DNA from: Archilochus colubris
Lineage: Eukaryota; Chordata; Aves; Apodiformes; Trochilidae
Length of the DNA: 64,000 nt
NCBI GenBank assembly: GCA_023079485.1
Contig: CM041083.1
Coordinates: forward strand, 111,455,554 to 111,519,553
Direction of reading: 5' to 3'
The first letter of the stretch is position 1, and every line of letters begins with the position of its first letter. This document shows, in pieces, positions 3,001 through 58,533 of the stretch. Both the position numbers and the translations under genes were made by a program. Below the pieces are notes generated by a model. That model was not told the origin of the DNA and did no database searches. It saw nothing but the letters and a program-made list of their open reading frames with translations.

Positions 3001-4320
3001 AGACCATTTTAGAAAAGTTTATAAAGTAGGACTGGTGACTATGACAGCATATTTTATTTAATAGAGGTAAGAATAAGGCTGGGTGAATAGGGTATTCACA
3101 CAGCTTACTTGTATAAGCAGGGGGGTAAAAAAAGCTCCCAAAGATCCCATGAGCTCATGTCATACATGAATCCATACAGGTCTTTTACCATGTGTAATGT
3201 GCCTTGCTGACACATTTAGGTTGACTGGGGACCCCAATATACAACTCATGCTGACATTGTCAGTGCTGGGGGGGTGTACAAGTCCAGGCAAAGGCAGAGT
3301 GCCACTGTGCTGGGCATCTCTTGTCTTGTCCTGAACTTGGAAGGAGAAGAACTGATCTGACATTTTGTTTTCCTTTGAAAGGAAACAAGGGAGACAATGC
3401 TGCTGACAGCTTTAAGTTCAGGTTTATGCTGATTAAAAAAGTTTAGTGGGCTTTTCCAGCTCACTAGTGCAGTAAATAAATCAGTGAAGCCTTTGCTGAT
3501 ATTCAGAGGCTATTATTCAGGACAAAGACTGCCTATAGGAAAAGCTTATGTTAGAAACAAGGAAAGGGTGACAGGCTTGCAAGGTCAAGGTGAGAGGTTT
3601 GATAAAAAGAAGACCACAAGTGATGTTCAGAGATCTTTGTCACTTCAAAAACTGACACACCATTAAAAGCTAGCAGGCAAAGCTTCCTTAGACAGCAGCA
3701 GCTTGTTCTGAAGCTGAACTGATAGCAGCTATAATGCCTCTCCCAGTTGCTGCTGTCAGTGTTTGAAAAAGCTTGGTGCTTCCTCATTGTCCATCTTCTG
3801 TCCATATACTCTACAGACACAGAACCCACAGAGCAATCTGCACCACACTCCAATCATTCCCACAGAAACAAGCTAGGAGTCAGACCTGCACATTGCAACA
3901 TGAGATATAAATAAGCTTAATGAGGAATAAAGTCAGCTCTTTGGTTACCTTGATCCTGTGTCCTGCTCAGCCAAGCAAAAGGTAAAGAGGATCAGCCCTG
4001 CACCTCCTTGCTTGGCTGGTACAGGTCTCAACCTGGTGGTAGCTCAGTGAAGAGCACAGCACTGGCTCTGCCCTCCTGCCTTGCTAACTGGGAAAAGAGG
4101 CTGGCTGCAAAGGGAAGGAAGAGGATTCCTTCCAGATGCAGTCATTCCTGCCCTGCAGTGGGGAGGTGAGTAGCTGCTCCCAGCACCCAGCTGAGTTTTG
4201 CAGTGTCTTCCTTGACTTAGCACCCAATGGAAGTTTCAGGTGGATACTTGTTGAAAATTTGGAGAATAAGGAAATGGAGAGAACCCAAGCAGTAGACAGG
4301 CTTTAACTTATGTCTGTGTT

Positions 4321-12189: not shown

Positions 12190-13830
12190 ACTGATATTCA
12201 AGGATCACATCCTCAATGAACTTGGCCAGAATGCCAGAAGGCCTGCATGGATGAAGGAGCTCCTGGCAAAACTCAGACACAAAGAGGGAGTACACAGAAG
12301 ATGGAAGCAGGTACAGGTAGCTTGGAATACAGAGACACTGGCTAAGCATACAGAAGTGTGGTTTGGAAAGCCAAATCCCAACTGGAGTTCAATCTGGCCA
12401 AGATGTCAAAGACAACAAGATCTCCAGAAGTCCCTTTCAACTCCTACCATTCTATGATTCTATGAGTCTGAGAAAGGTTTCTATAAATATGTAAGCGATA
12501 AAAGGAAGGCCAGGGAAAATGGGGCCCCCTGGTTGAATGGAGCAGGGAATGTAGTGACACAGGACATAGAAAATGCTGAGGTACTGAGTGCCTCATTTGC
12601 TTCAGTCTTTACTAGCAAGACCAGCCTGCAGGAGTCCCAAGTCCAAGATATCAGTAGAAGAGTATGGAGCAATGAAGACTGCCCCTTGGTGCCAAAGGAT
12701 CAGATCAGGGAATACTTGAACAAAATGGCATGCACCTACAGCTACTGAGGGAACTGGCAGGTGTCAGTGTGAGCCCTCTTGCAATAGTCTCTAATTGATG
12801 GTGGTGGTTGGGAGAAGTGCCTGAAGACTGGAAGAAAGCAAATGTCACATCTATCTTTAAGAACAAGAAGGAAACCCCAGGAGCCTACATGCCACCCAGG
12901 CTCCTCTCCATCCTTGGGAAGGTGATGGAGCAGATAATCCGGGCAACCATTTCCAGGCACGTGAAGACCAAGAAAGCAATTAGGAGTACAGAGCATGGAC
13001 GCACCAAGGGGATGTCATGCTTGACCAACCTGATAACCTTATGTGGTTAAGTGACTGGCTTGGTAGAAGAGTATAACTCAGTGGATATTGTCTATCTCAA
13101 CTTCTGTAAGGCTTTTGACATGGCTTATTTTAAGATCCTTGTGGAAAACAAATGAACTATTGGCTGGATAAGCAGACACTGAAGTGGACTGAAAACTGGA
13201 TAAATATGAGGTCTAGGGAATGGTGATCAGTGGCACTAAATCTAGCTGGTGGCCAGTAACTAGTGGTGTACTCCAGAGGTCAATACTCCAGAGGTCCAGT
13301 CAGTAATGATCAGTATGGTGGGTCATAGTATTCCCTCAACAAATTCACTGATGACCAAAAAAACCAGGCTGAGTGCCTGATAGACCAGAGGATTGTGCTG
13401 CCACCCAGGGGGACCTTGAAAGGGTCAACACAAACCTCATGCAGATCAGCAAGGGGAAATGCAAAGTCCCCCACCTGGTTAGGAAAAACCTCCTGCATTA
13501 CTACATGTTGGGGGGACACCAAGCTGGAAAGCAGCTTTGAAGAGAAGGCCCCGGGGATCCTGGTGGACATCCTGGTGATCCTGGTGATTCTGGAACGTGA
13601 AGCAGCAATGTGCCTTTACAACAAAGAAGGTCAGCTGTAACCTGGGTTGCAATAGGAGTGTTGCCAGCAGCCCATGGGAGGTGATACTTCCCTCAGCATT
13701 GCTGAGGCCACACTCAGTGTCCATCTCTGTGTTCACCAGTAAAAGAGGGATGTGGAGCTATGGAAGGCAGTCCAGCTAAGGGCAACTGGATGTATCTGCA
13801 GAACCAGATGACTGGAGGGGAAAAGCTCTA
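12190..13830 (+). mobile_element. Degenerate CR1 LINE, reverse-transcriptase ORF2 region
   Basis: Fragments in different plus frames match the order of avian CR1 ORF2. They include LLAKLRHKEGVHRRWKQVQV (about 12254), GFYKYVSDKRKAREN (about 12477), SFASVFTSKTSLQESQ (about 12590), GEVPEDWKKANVTSIF (12811), then MEQIIRATISRHV and GRTKGMSCLTNLITLCG (12925-13047), KAFDMAYFKILVENK (about 13111), and the later SKGKCKVPHL and REVILP-like blocks (13450-13700). CR1 is a non-LTR retrotransposon whose protein primes reverse transcription at the target. This copy has many frameshifts and stops, appears to lack the RT YxDD region in intact form, and is dead. A DNA repeat similar to ATCCTGGTG interrupts it near 13556-13590. 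Confidence 0.85.
12419..12466 (+). mobile_element. Nested CR1 3'-end fragment
   Basis: About 48 bp with the characteristic CR1 3' terminus (tccagaagtccctttcaac, then the tandem attctatg unit). It lies inside the ORF2 region of the older CR1, between codons reading AKMSKTT and KGFYKYV, which are adjacent in ordinary CR1. This is best explained by a severely 5'-truncated second CR1 that inserted into the first copy. Template switching during the original insertion is an alternative. Confidence 0.6.
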
Positions 13831-17715: not shown

Positions 17716-20356
17716 AAGAAATCCCTGGGGTGAAGGTCAGATATAAAGGCAATGTCTCTCATTGTCTCTGACTGTCTCACACAACAGGAAAAATACAAAC
17801 TCATTTCCTAGGGAACAAAGGTCTTAAGAAAGCAATCTTGTTTGGTAGCTACCAACCTGAAGTCATTCTGGAGCTTTTTTCAATGTTCTGAAGCTAATGG
17901 GGGATTCATATTTGACACATAGGATATTATGACCTAGGAGCTCTTTTATTCTGCTGATGAGTTTCTGACAATATCAGTATTTCTTAAATAAGCATTATTC
18001 TAGAAGATGCAAGTGGCTAACAATTCAGTGAAAAGAATTCTAGAAACCCAGCACTCATTTCTGGGGAGACAAATCTCTGGTCTGTTGCACCCATCTCAGT
18101 TCTGCTTCAGTGGGCTGGAAGAGCAGAGGACTTTGGAAAGTTCCTTGGGCAGAAGTCATGTTTCATCAGAAGATTTGTACCATTTCAGACATTGCTGGTG
18201 ATGTTCAATAAACAGGCACAATGCAATAGCTAATTCATAAAAATGGGACTCCTATAGCAGCCAGAGGCAACTTTGTTGTTATTGTGAATCTTTATCTTTT
18301 TTATTGTGTATTGGGATTCTTGCATCAGTTTTCATTGTGCAAAAGAACTACCCTCCTGCCACTTCTAAATAAGACCATGCACTATTTAAAATGACAAGTA
18401 CTTTTACAATATGATGTAACTTGCTTTAGATTTTCAGCTGGCCAGAACTTAAACAAGCCTTTTTTTTTTTTCTTTCTTTTTTTCTTTTCCCTCAGGACAT
18501 ATCATTCTGTTTTTCACATTTGCTTTGTAAATCAGACCAAAACAATGTCTTGCTGAATTTCTAATCAACTACAAACTCCTGGAAGGTTGCAGCTGCCCAG
18601 TGCCATAGTGTCTGTAAATATGATAGTCATACAAAGGTTCAGTTTGGTCCATGGAGGTCGGGACCTGCTGCTTTCCATATCCCATGACCTGAGGTGACTA
18701 TGCCAGAATTGAGGAAAGTGCATCCAAGTCCAAGGTGAAATTCATGAAACCTGGATTCGTCAGGAAATTTCTAGTCCTCTAGTTAGAGCATCTGAACAAG
18801 CTACAGTTATGAACTGCTTCAATACATTTCTCCTAAGCTTAAAAGCTGCTGCTTTCTAAAACTGAAATTGTTTTGATAAGAAGTGCTAAATTCTACCATA
18901 TATTAACTGCATCAACAGAATAAAAAATATGAACTCATACTGGAAAAGTTATCAAATGTGAACATTTGTTCAACTGATTCTTAAAAAAAATAACCTGGCT
19001 ACATCTATTAGAATGTTTATTTGAAAATGTTAATGTTCTGAAATAATTAGATTAATTTAACTGTATTCTTTTCCCAGAAACCAAGTTGCATAAGAGAAGT
19101 AAATTTTGGCACAAAAAAACCTTTCTTGAGCATGAACTACAGCTTGTTATCCCTTACATAAATCACTGTATGTTCAAGGGTAGACATAGAGTGGGAAAGG
19201 AGCCACATTAAAACATAGATTCTGACATCTGGTTACAACATTACATGTAGCTTTTCTATTAAGCCACATGGCAAATTGAATTCTCTGCCCTTTGTAATGT
19301 GCATTGGAAAATATCCTTGGGGGATAACATTTTGGAACACATGCAAGTTACAAAAATAGTTACAAAAATAGTTTCTGAGATGACATTTCCTATTTATACC
19401 TGTAACTGTAGAGGTATTTGAGTTAATCCTTAAAGCCTTATGATAATTCTACCTGAAGAAATCAGGATGAAGTTTGTCAGCTGGCTGTAGTGTTACCCTT
19501 TGAAGACAACATAGGGGTCTGCAAGTTTAAGAGGATGAAATCCTGAGAGTTCCAACATATAAATTACTGGATGTAAGAGAAGTCAGATGCTTGTTCTTAC
19601 AGAGAGAAAGTAATACTGTTTTTCATGGTGAAAAGTCAGGCTCACCTGCTGCTTTGTAGCTCTAACATACAGCTTTTTCATGTGATAAACACTATTCCAC
19701 TAAGTTCAGGCAATTCCTTCTGAAGAGGCCAGAGTAAGCCTGGATTTGCTTCTGTCAGGCATACCTTTGGATAGTATTTTTATATTTAACCTTTATTAGA
19801 TTTGCTTCATGACTGTTCTTCTGCTTAATCATTTATTTATTTGCCTTTTTCTGTCATTTGTTCAGTGTAAGGCAGAGAAGAAAGCTTTTTTTTTTAAATT
19901 TCTTTTTCTTTTTTTTTCCCCAGTTACAATTGAATTTATAATGTGAAGACATCAAAAAGAGAGGAAGGCTTCAGGCAGAATATGTATGCAATGTCTCCCC
20001 ACTTATCATCTGGAGGACTAAAGCCCATGATGTTTCTCAGGAAAATCAGAGCTAGCTGCTGCAGTATTCAGTGATAAGAATGGATTTTGACTTGGATCTT
20101 TCGCTCTCATTTTTTCTGCTTAGAATAAACCCTATGAACATATTACATGAGTATGAAAAGGAAAATACTAACCTCAATGGAGCTCAAACCATAAAGCAAT
20201 TCTGCCCATGACTCAGGCATGTTGGTTGCTAATACTGCCCCTTTCTGGTCAATGCCAGTTCACGCAGCAAATTCTCCTCCTTTTTCCTTCAGATTCAGGA
20301 ATATTTACCACCATGCTTTTCAAAGGAGTCCAGTATGCATGTGTGGCATACGGATA

Positions 20357-20515
20357 GATTAATAGAATGTCAGGTTGGAAGGGACCTCAAGGATCATCTG
20401 GACCGACCCTTCTAATATTTTTTATATGATATGTCCCAGCACCCTGTCGAGCTGAGACATAAAACTTTCCGTAGTGGGAGAATCCACCACTTCCCTTGGG
20501 AGACCATTCCAATAA
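20357..20515 (-). mobile_element. CR1 3' end, minus orientation
   Basis: The plus strand reads ataga atgtcaggttggaagg gacctcaaggatcatct, the reverse complement of the conserved CR1 3' terminus. It continues with the expected ...gaatccaccacttcccttgg gagaccattccaat. It is truncated at 20515, where a purine-rich microsatellite begins. This copy lies in the same orientation as DSCAM transcription. Confidence 0.85.
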
Positions 20516-20700
20516 GAGTAAGAGTCAGAGTCAGAGTCAGAGTCACAATGAGAAAGGAAGAGGAAGAGGAAGAGGAAGAGGAAGAGGAAGAGGAAGAGGA
20601 GGAAGAAAAGAAGAAGAAAGAAGAAGAGCAAGAAGAAGAGGAAGAAGAACAACAACAAGAAGAAAAACAAGAAGAACAGGAAAAAGAACAAGAAGAAACC
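20516..20700 (+). repeat. Purine-rich compound microsatellite
   Basis: Tandem AGAGTC units (about 20518-20546) are followed by about 140 bp of GAGGAA/GAAGAA-type purine repeats with some ACAAGA units. The strand transcribed with DSCAM is an unbroken polypyrimidine (CTTCCT) tract 200-390 nt past a 5' splice site. Open frames here are Glu/Arg or Phe/Ser homopolymer artefacts. Confidence 0.9.
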
Positions 20701-23060: not shown

Positions 23061-24922
23061 GCCTCAGTACTTTCCTTGAAGGAGGTGGGAGGTCCTGCTG
23101 CCAGCATGCAGGACATCAGTGCTCATCCTGCTGAGCGTGTGCTGAGCAGTAGCTCTGCCCCAGTTGTGCTGTGCCTGCATAAGGGGCTCTGTAGCACAGG
23201 CATAGCCCACTCCAGAGCTGCCTATGTCATGGAAAACAGTGTGCATCTGGTCTTTAAGCCAGCCCTGCTGTCATGTGCTGAAATCTAATTGCAGAGAGCA
23301 GAAGTGAACAAGCCAAGGAAAAAGGTTCGTGAAGCATAGGTCTTTTAGAAATAAATACAAAAGAACATGAGAACAAATTAAAAAGTTATGTAAGGGAATA
23401 TGTGCCAGCCAGTGGGTGTGAGTGTACTCAGTCAGAAGGATCCACAGTCTCTGAGCCACTGAGCTGGGCACTTCACTCCTCTTCAGAGGGAAAGCTGTGG
23501 GTCTAGACAAAACATCATAGTCTAGCCTCTATCAAAAGTATATTAGCGTCTTAAATCCTGAGAACACTACCTAAAAGCCTTTGACCCAGCCCCATGTAAT
23601 GCTGCCATCAGATGTTTATTCCATAATAAAAGTAATGGTGGATTTCTATTTTCAAAGCTGAGCTGGACACTGATCATACTTTTTCACATGAGTTAAATCC
23701 AATTATAATTTGAAGGAAATCCTCCTGATTTCAGTGGAAAGATACACATGACTGCACACAAAAAAGTGATTAGGCATGGAAGGTGATGATGCTATAACTG
23801 GTGCTATAAAGTGCTGTGGTATGATTCAAGCAGGCAATCTGGGAGTGGTGCCTCTTTCCTTATTAGAAAAGACAGGGTTGGAAGACAACAGAGGTCCACT
23901 GTTTACCCAGATGATCCTGACCTGTCAACATGATAAAAAATAGCTGGTGATATTTTTGCTTTTAGTGAGCAGGCTAGACAGCACATACATGAACTAAAGG
24001 AGTGAGAAAAGAGCGGTGTGAGAAAGAAAACAAATACTGTATCTTGACTCTTTCAATTCAAATGCTATGACTCTCTATAGACGAAGAATGGTGGTACTAA
24101 TCTAGTCTTCACATATTTTAAAACTGTCAGAGTCAGAAAAGCAACAAGGTCAGGACTAGATCAGCTGTTGCTTAAAGACTGAGGTGGATTTCAGCATTTA
24201 CATTCACCAAACTCACCAAGTAAAATTTCCAAAATGGTCAGGGAATAGAAAAAATCCAAGAGATTCTAGAAATTGCAGTGTTAGTGAACTACACTTTGGT
24301 AAAAGCCCTAAGTATTTCTCTGATCTAGAGATTTTCATTTCCATTTATATAGATACAGAACACATTCATGAGAGAAATAAGAACGATGGATTGCAGCAGT
24401 GTATTAATTTATGATATCATTTTAATCACTATAAGAATAGCTCAGCACAAATATATGTCAGAAAAGTAATTTACCATAATAACTAAAACTGGAAATACAC
24501 CTTTTTCAGAAAAGCGATAATAAGAAATGTGTTTCTTGCCAGATGTAGAGGTAAGAAGGGAAGAAATAGTTTGAAATACAATAAAGACTGATCACCGATA
24601 AAAAATATATTAGACACTAAAAGTCATTAAGCTAATTTACCCAATAAATTATAGAAATTAAAATTTAGCATGCACTTGGTTTAATGAAAGCCAGATATGA
24701 ATTATTTCAAATTACACCTACATTTCAGATGCACGTGCAATTTTTACCATATTGAATCACTAAATGCAACTGTAGAGGAAATGTTCTCTGCTGACCTAAA
24801 TACATTTCTCTCAGCTTTCAGACTGAAGAGTAAAACCCCATGATGATGTAAACACAGGAGAACAGTAATAATTTTCTTATAGTTTTCTCTTCTCCAGATA
24901 ACATATTCTCTTAGATGCTTAC

Positions 24923-34986: not shown

Positions 34987-34993
34987 AGCAAGC
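34987..34993 (+). repeat. Left copy of putative target-site duplication (AGCAAGC)
   Basis: A seven-base direct repeat immediately outside the left arm of the palindromic element; the matching copy is at 35419-35425. It could be 6-8 bp, depending on where the element tip is placed. Confidence 0.5.
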
Positions 34994-35128
34994 TGTAGAG
35001 AAACAAGATAAACCAGGTGTCTTGAGTTGCCGAAGAGTGGGTGTGAGTCCACCTGTGCCTGGTTAGGGCAGGCCCCCTATGACCAGGGGGCCAATAAAGG
35101 TGGGACACACACCCACAAGGTGCTCTCA

Positions 35129-35140
35129 TGGCGCAGCTGG
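35129..35140 (+). promoter_or_regulatory. A-box-like Pol III promoter motif
   Basis: TGGCGCAGCTGG fits the A-box pattern TRGYNNARNNGG and sits 45 bp before the B-box-like motif, a normal tRNA or SINE spacing. Function is inferred only. Confidence 0.4.
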
Positions 35141-35173
35141 TTAAGACCCAGTACTGCAATGCCGAAGGCCCCG

Positions 35174-35186
35174 GGTTCGAGACTCC
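35174..35186 (+). promoter_or_regulatory. B-box-like Pol III promoter motif
   Basis: GGTTCGAGACTCC contains the core GTTCRANNC. The related element at 44160-44466 keeps the same motif as GGTTCAAGACTCC on the minus strand (44421-44433), so this part is conserved between copies. Confidence 0.45.
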
Positions 35187-35418
35187 ACAGAGAGCACACC
35201 CTAGAGGCGATGAGCCCTAGTGGCGCAATGAAGGTAATACAGTGCTCTGAGAGTTACCAGTCTCTCTCGTCTAACACAAGAGTGAGCTCTCTCCTTGTGG
35301 GTGTGTGCCCCACCTATATTGGCCCCCTGGTCATAGGGGGCCTGCCCTAACCAGGCACAGGTGGACTCACACCCACTCTTCGGCAACTCAAGACACCTGG
35401 TTTATCTTGTTTCTCTAT

Positions 35419-35425
35419 AGCAAGC
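35419..35425 (+). repeat. Right copy of putative target-site duplication (AGCAAGC)
   Basis: An exact copy of 34987-34993 at the right border of the palindromic element. Together they support insertion by a transposase- or integrase-like mechanism rather than a local inversion. Confidence 0.5.
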
Positions 35426-39839: not shown

Positions 39840-48920
<9,081 letters not shown>

Positions 48921-49019
48921 CTCGGATAGAACTGCCACCATTGTCTCCAGGTATCCAGGAAAGAGTGATAGAGGAAGATGTAGTTTTGGAAACAGTGAGT
49001 CTTGGCTGGTCTGGTGGAA
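48921..49019 (-). CDS. DSCAM: DSCAM FNIII domain 5, first half
   Basis: This 99-nt exon has phase 1 at both ends. The acceptor ccatctag precedes TT CCA CCA, and the donor is ATC CGA G followed by GTAATA. It encodes (V)[20 protein letters not shown] followed by [12 protein letters not shown]. This is the start of an FNIII domain: the PPDQP linker, strand A/B ([15 protein letters not shown]) with its core tryptophan, and the [11 protein letters not shown] turn that continues in the next exon. It directly follows Ig10. It is short and starts without an internal Met, so it is easily missed by ORF-based methods. Confidence 0.95.

Positions 49020-58533
<9,514 letters not shown>

Follow-up and report, generated by a model that had tools for sequence, protein, structure and literature searches.

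A family of palindromic, LTR-derived elements with a tRNA-like core in the genome of Archilochus colubris

Results

An LTR-derived palindrome in many copies

The long inverted repeat in the window (the whole stretch of DNA analyzed here, 64,000 nucleotides) is one copy of a genuine, fairly young family of non-autonomous, LTR-derived palindromic elements. The family is multicopy, and its members combine a palindromic layout with TG...CA ends, target-site duplications of 6 bp (sometimes 5 bp), arms corresponding to the U3 region of an LTR, and agreement between the two arms of a copy. The complete explanation favored here, to which a probability of about 0.55 is assigned, is that a cDNA folded back, primed its own second strand and was inserted as a palindrome by an integrase. 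Insertion by an integrase of the retroviral type is well supported, and we infer that the palindrome itself was made by the folding back of the cDNA. To our knowledge, no established class of mobile element has mirror arms of a retroviral LTR around a tRNA-like center. The literature searched yielded no account of an element of this kind; one may exist in a repeat library or in another paper.

The element in the window

The window copy has two 127-bp arms, 98% identical as an inverted repeat, on either side of a 172-nt spacer (Table 1). These dimensions agree with the first-pass annotation, as does its count of about three differences between the arms, although only two of these are internal and the third is the second base from the end. 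With 42 inverted pairs found in the 64 kb, the element is the longest; the next longest measures 53 nt at 72% identity, and most of the others, among the 25 listed, are A/T runs. Folded as RNA, the element reaches −324 kcal/mol, against −150 kcal/mol (SD, 5.9) in 100 shuffles. The flanking direct repeat had been read as the 7-bp AGCAAGC. This was corrected to an exact 6-bp duplication, because homology to the other copies sets the ends of the element at TG...CA with 6 bp duplicated; the extra A of the 7-bp reading belongs to the element itself, as its last base. The outer end of the right arm differs from the CTACA seen in nearly all other copies whose ends were printed.

Table 1. Features of the palindromic element and its relative in the window
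Feature	Position	Strand	Evidence
Left target-site duplication, GCAAGC	34988..34993	.	Exact repeat just outside TG...(C/T)A; 6-bp length from other copies
Left arm, U3 end of LTR, TGTAGAG..., 127 bp	34994..35120	+	98% inverted copy of right arm; U3 of solo LTR L027, 125/127
tRNA-like core (U1), nearest tRNA-Ile(UAU); 8-bp closing stem	35121..35199	+	Score 41, 0/300 shuffles
U2, inner-arm segment; tRNA-Ile(UAU)-like in other copies	35200..35292	+	Layout compared with other copies
Right arm, U3 of LTR, outer end ...CTCTATA	35293..35419	-	Positions 3-145 of LTR L027 match 139/143
Right target-site duplication, GCAAGC	35420..35425	.	Exact repeat
Older half-copy, LTR-like, TG...GCA, 288 bp	44160..44447	+	End-to-end alignment to 35419-35160
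Target-site duplication of half-copy, GAGGTT	44154..44159 (left), 44448..44453 (right)	.	Sole TG..CA pair with exact 6-bp repeat in scanned range
Segment like intron-containing tRNA-Ile(UAU) gene	44305..44394	-	64/94 columns identical; score 54, highest of 300 shuffles 30

Provided that the element was inserted with identical arms, their 3 differences in 127 positions would correspond to an age of roughly 6 million years at a bird substitution rate of about 2e-9 per site and year. The minus strand of the window carries exons of DSCAM/DSCAML type (for 45578-45928, Pfam PF25059 at E = 5.8e-30), so that the element is most likely inside an intron of a DSCAM-type gene. A protein search with the frame across the element gave no match, a BLAST search of phages and plasmids gave none, and pattern scans of the viral and of the bacterial and archaeal collections gave 0 matches each.

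Copies in the genome

The search covered 1.10 Gb in 182 contigs, a size that is consistent with a bird, as are the DSCAM-type exons, and returned 1645 first-look candidates, of which 40 were scored and 20 of these fetched as a first set. A 21-mer from the core has 242 exact matches in the genome, and a 23-mer from the other side of the core has 164; the reversed 21-mer and the control for the 23-mer have none. A sample of 40 copies was taken from the first 100 listed places of the core word, all on contigs C1 and C2, omitting those already fetched, and a last set comprised 16 places of the second word on the same two contigs without a listed core match.

When complete, the element is palindromic, in the order U3-U2-core-U2'-U3', with TG...CA ends and a length of about 490 to 570 bp. 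Eight copies of the first set have arms of 214 to 257 bp around a spacer of 53 to 62 nt, which is the tRNA-like core, and are 512 to 566 bp long. The symmetric copies of the 40-copy sample have a similar layout down to 493 bp, and two of them carry U3s of another subfamily, which the queries match in part. Classed by eye from the printed layouts, the 40-copy sample contains 11 symmetric copies, 16 asymmetric copies, in which one arm is complete and the other is reduced to an outer piece, 12 one-armed copies, some of which retain up to about 30 nt of the second arm, and 1 irregular copy (L043). All or part of one arm is absent in 28 of the 40, with about as many complete arms on one side of the core as on the other (14 versus 12, with 2 undecided). 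The window copy is a reduced form and belongs to the asymmetric class, with its left arm cut to 127 bp, the other arm complete and, by comparison with the layout of other copies, no inverted partner of U2.

Eleven of the 40 scored loci are on contig C32 (32.4 Mb, about 3% of the assembly), and an enrichment like that of a W chromosome would fit this. A small inverted fragment of the same U3 at L085:5179-5319 (gT 42-152 beside inverted gT 22-52) is perhaps a collapsed palindrome.

Target-site duplications

The first set, whose edges were set by hand after viewing the copy ends, has 14 palindromic copies, that of the window among them, and 13 have an exact 6-bp duplication beside TG...CA, L022 being the exception. 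The 40-copy sample has it in 18 of 28 copies (L043 counted), with three more at five of six positions, and 5-bp repeats were seen by eye in L034, L040 and L058. By class, exact duplications in this sample are distributed as 5/11 symmetric, 13/16 asymmetric, 0/12 one-armed and 0/1 irregular copies. The last set has them in 9 of 16 copies, corresponding, when the copies are classed by hand, to 9/10 two-armed and 0/6 one-armed copies. Displacing the edges as a control gave 2 in 694. The two-armed copies thus have the TG...CA ends and constant duplication of 4 to 6 bp of an LTR element. Many copies of one arm-core-arm layout and target duplications of constant length had both been named as things to look for when the element was first described; the exact core matches and the palindromic layout of the fetched copies bear out the former, and the duplications are nearly constant.

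Among one-armed copies, the flanks of L029 carry an inverted 7-mer, GGTTTCA/TGAAACC, which is not a direct duplication. L070, L074 and L080 break near the middle of the core, close to the ends of L020 and of 44160-44447, and showed no duplication in the scan.

The duplications bear on whether the palindromes are real single insertions. Palindromes are a known artifact of long-read assembly, and chimeric reads could have made inverted arms; this origin is scarcely conceivable here, and was rejected, because dozens of copies in different flanks have their own exact target duplications. Two independent back-to-back insertions were rejected because a single 6-bp duplication spans both arms in many copies. 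Readings based on the window by itself, as an LTR or as a SINE formed by double target-primed synthesis, were superseded by the genome copies.

Arms shared with the U3 of solo LTRs

An ordinary solo LTR of 209 bp, L027 (754-962 of its locus), has TG...CA ends and the duplication CTCTTA. Its first 127 bases correspond to the left arm of the window copy, and on the right-arm side the local alignment ends at its position 145 (Table 1). L090 (688-895, 208 bp, GATTCA) and L087 (318 bp, GTTGGA) are solo LTRs of the same kind that lie next to one-armed copies. All three were recognized by TG..CA and duplications and not by a named library entry. The match of the arms to solo LTRs identifies both termini of the insertion as U3 termini of an LTR that is flanked by 6-bp duplications, which makes a non-autonomous LTR element the nearest known kind. 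The LTR behind these U3 ends presumably belongs to an endogenous retrovirus, and from the duplication length we take the solo LTRs to be ERVK/ERV2-like. The 318-bp solo LTR at L087:3405-3722 contains an R-U5-like part twice (matches at 3499-3554 and 3405-3457).

Neither direct LTRs nor the pairing of a U3 with a U5 end expected of a solo LTR was found in the palindromes, both of whose ends are U3; one U3 and one U5 end occur only in the half-copies L020 and 44160-44447. A retroviral primer-binding site was rejected, as the best match beside the LTR-like end to 25 tRNA 3' ends is 12/18, and 43 of 300 shuffles do equally well. No helper provirus or proviral interior was seen in the fetched loci. 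The 10 kb past the broken ends of 8 one-armed copies contained no autonomous element and no complete second arm; U3 pieces were present there in 4 of the 8, as two solo LTRs with their own duplications, one one-armed copy and one fragment.

The two arms of a copy change together

Over the outer 110 nt, arms are 99.0% identical within copies against 88.4% between copies, and an arm is closer to its own partner in 12 of 14 copies. Letters found in at least 3 of these 14 copies (25 columns) occur in both arms of a carrier 93 times and in one arm 8 times. When partners are shuffled among the same 14 copies, the means are 30 for both arms (maximum, 73) and 157 for one arm. The effect is weaker in a younger, more uniform subfamily, with 12 in both arms and 16 in one against 5.6 and 35 after shuffling. 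There, paired rare letters number 12, compared with a shuffled mean of 1.1 and maximum of 3, identity is 97.8% within and 96.6% between copies, and in 7 of 19 cases no other arm comes as close as the own partner. The earlier suggestion of arms that are either young or homogenized agrees with the identity within copies and with the pairing of shared letters.

A palindromic MITE, that is, a TIR DNA transposon moved by a transposase that duplicates 6 bp and carrying captured tRNA-like sequence, would also have long inverted arms and near-constant 6-bp duplications, and TG...CA ends or duplications of 6 bp do occur in some families of DDE transposons. This origin is nevertheless improbable, since the arms are the U3 of solo LTRs whose other end is different and not inverted, the arms of a copy change together across subfamilies, and no complete second arm was present in the 10 kb beyond the broken ends of 8 one-armed copies.

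Across 17 copies the core is 94.6% alike and the U3 88.6%, and the core is the more alike of the two in 105 of the 136 pairs compared. The pattern looks like that of a single core joined to U3s of several types. Among 20 asymmetric junctions, counted by eye (including that of L084, which was read by eye), 11 lie at the complement of the tRNA-like 5' end (GAGA to GAGAGCC) and 9 elsewhere. In four asymmetric copies the junction is the same and has a GCC overlap; common junctions could go back to a source copy that was itself asymmetric. Mispriming at formation and later one-sided deletion are equally possible causes of asymmetric arms, and junctions near the stem with microhomology fit both.

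The tRNA-like core and inner arms

The start of the spacer had been called tRNA-like, which holds for its similarity and not for its recognition as a tRNA. Its score was obtained against 25 tRNAs, an incomplete list, and compared with dinucleotide shuffles (Table 1). When both strands were scanned in 3194 windows of 120 nt, it was not reached outside the element; the runners-up score 37, in the relative at 44 kb, and 36, at an unrelated site around 18041-18200. ARAGORN with bacterial settings called no tRNA at 35121-35199, and Rfam covariance models gave no tRNA there up to E = 10, only matches at chance level. Relaxed ARAGORN settings gave 78 to 80 candidates overall, 44302-44396 among them, and were uninformative.

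The closing stem of the core is matched by 36 of 20000 shuffles. This stem, GGTGAGGCTCTC...GAGAGCCTCACC, runs into the arms, and among 18 printed copies each of its strands is unchanged in 12; the palindrome as a whole is a tRNA-like fold whose acceptor stem is very long. Among 40 other copies, 28 have a core whose nearest tRNA is tRNA-Ile(UAU) and 4 a core closest to tRNA-Ile(AAU), with a mean score of 36.4; of their 51 inner-arm segments, 46 come closest to tRNA-Ile(UAU), either with its intron or without. In 407 flank windows taken as a control, the 99th percentile is 30.9 and the highest score 37. In the window copy, the tRNA similarity of U2 alone is not significant (87 of 300 shuffles equally high). 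Judged by their sequence, core and inner arms are taken as degenerate tRNA-derived sequences and not as tRNA genes. A fresh copy of a host tRNA was rejected, as the 39-nt half scores only 24 to tRNA-Ile of the same incomplete list and 13 of 300 shuffles are as high. The core also contains motifs that we take, from the consensus, to be A-box-like and B-box-like; these motifs would make Pol III transcription of the element possible.

The tRNA-Ile-like core and body, and one-armed copies that read core-U2-tail, could also be those of a tRNA-derived SINE mobilized by LINE machinery, with palindromes arising when both target ends prime on two RNAs. Short duplications (peak, 3 to 5 bp) are moreover typical of LINEs of the L2 and CR1 clades (PMC4245944, in part). 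Such an origin is very improbable, as the tail is LTR U3 with a CA end, the ends printed have no A-rich or microsatellite tail, and one-armed copies lack the 6-bp duplication; 5' inversions of SINEs are also very rare, at 0.02% for germline Alu (PMC12016303, in part). A plain SINE was rejected for its LTR tail and for one-armed copies without duplications.

A half-copy 9 kb away

About 9 kb from the window element, on the opposite strand, lies an older half-copy (44160-44447). Its alignment to 35419-35160 has 52 gap columns and 78.2% identity (194 of 248 positions). Only 37 of the 72027 TG..CA pairs that are 200 to 400 bp apart in the whole window carry a 6-bp repeat, which makes chance an unlikely source of such a repeat where homology sets the boundary. 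The inner part of the half-copy still resembles a whole intron-containing tRNA-Ile(UAU) gene (Table 1); of the tRNA sequence used for this comparison, the 5' 24 to 38 nt and a 3' primer, which cover part of the exons, agree with excerpts of PMC4694795 and PMC7555719. A profile search of the window for further copies returned the known ones only, the next match having an E value of 0.03 at 23180.

The half-copies raise the question of whether the palindromes form a self-propagating family. They could instead be dead-end by-products of an endogenous retrovirus with a tRNA-like R-U5, whose plus-strand strong-stop DNA occasionally folded back and was inserted by integrase through two U3 ends. The half-copies 44160-44447 and L020 (duplication CATACT), which end at the same place in the core, resemble solo LTRs of such a virus, and the U3 is common to palindromes and ordinary solo LTRs. 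We regard this reading as unlikely, because half-copies are few (1 of 20 first-set loci and 0 of 16 last-set loci, in addition to 44160-44447) and no primer-binding site was found. The 40-copy sample is blind to half-copies, as it was chosen by a word in the half that they lack.

Discussion

In the self-priming explanation preferred here, an RNA from the tRNA-like 5' end through core, U2 and U3 would be reverse transcribed. The 3' end of the cDNA would be the complement of GGCTCTC, the 5' strand of the tRNA-like stem, and could pair with the other strand of the stem. This folded-back end would prime a second strand up to the U3 terminus, giving palindromic DNA with two identical U3 ends, which the integrase of an endogenous retrovirus with the same U3 would insert. 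Mis-annealing of the 3' end, or later one-sided deletion of the unstable palindrome, would produce the asymmetric and one-armed copies, that of the window included. Self-priming would explain the identity of the arms, their paired variants and the U3-U3 ends, as well as the missing primer-binding site and the junctions at the stem complement.

A further step, offered tentatively and held to be doubtful, is that the family is a retroelement that replicates through a self-primed hairpin, the tRNA-like acceptor stem at the 5' end of a half-length RNA serving, after reverse transcription, as a built-in primer of the second strand, and a perfect palindrome with two identical integrase sites being made in every round. 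If true, palindromes would be formed without primer-binding site, polypurine tract or strand transfers, and this would be a third route from RNA to insertable DNA, beside LTR strand transfer and target-primed reverse transcription.

The family joins a SINE-like tRNA core, foldback arms and LTR ends, which classification keys keep apart, and the earlier statement that it fits neither foldback elements and MITEs nor SINEs is supported by its U3 ends, its paired arm changes and the lack of a LINE-type tail. Avian ERV solo LTRs, which are abundant in birds, notably ERVK in Passeriformes (PMC11009239, in part), have the same TG...CA ends, 6-bp duplications and U3, whereas the palindromic family has tRNA-like sequence behind the U3, is mirrored and has U3 at both ends. 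Chicken LTRs are described as about 200 to 350 bp long with duplications of 4 to 6 bp (PMC2329609, in part), and retroviral att ends as imperfect inverted repeats (PMC1180852, in part). TRIM elements, especially plant Cassandra, are likewise short, non-coding and of LTR type with sequence like that of a Pol III gene, in Cassandra the 5S sequence in its LTRs (PMC7215508, in part). Cassandra has LTRs and a primer-binding site, while the present family consists of a single palindrome around tRNA-like sequence, and a primer-binding site was looked for and not found. Foldback elements and palindromic MITEs have the same long inverted arms, multiple copies, lack of coding capacity and fixed-length target duplications; they differ from the palindromic family in that the latter has LTR ends and arms of a copy that change together. 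The bird SINEs TguSINE1 (tRNA-Ile, as here) and PittSINE (tRNA-Asp) share a tRNA-derived part but have CR1-derived tails ending in an 8-bp microsatellite instead of LTR U3, and excerpts of PMC5729268 do not mention inverted arms for them. The accounts of chicken repeats in excerpts of PMC4992247 and PMC4540587 contain no sequence for comparison.

However they are made, the copies are a natural collection of hundreds of datable long palindromes in which palindrome instability can be studied. The family also spreads strong hairpins, which bring LTR U3 and possible Pol III motifs with them, across the genome.

Other features of the window

Exons of DSCAM/DSCAML type (FN3, Ig) are located at 12458-13047 and 45578-58533. 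Fragments like CR1 reverse transcriptase were suspected by eye near 12191-13640, where Pfam returned no family for the two frames tested. A purine-rich tandem tract with AGGAAG/AGAAGAGGAAGA units occupies 20515-20698.
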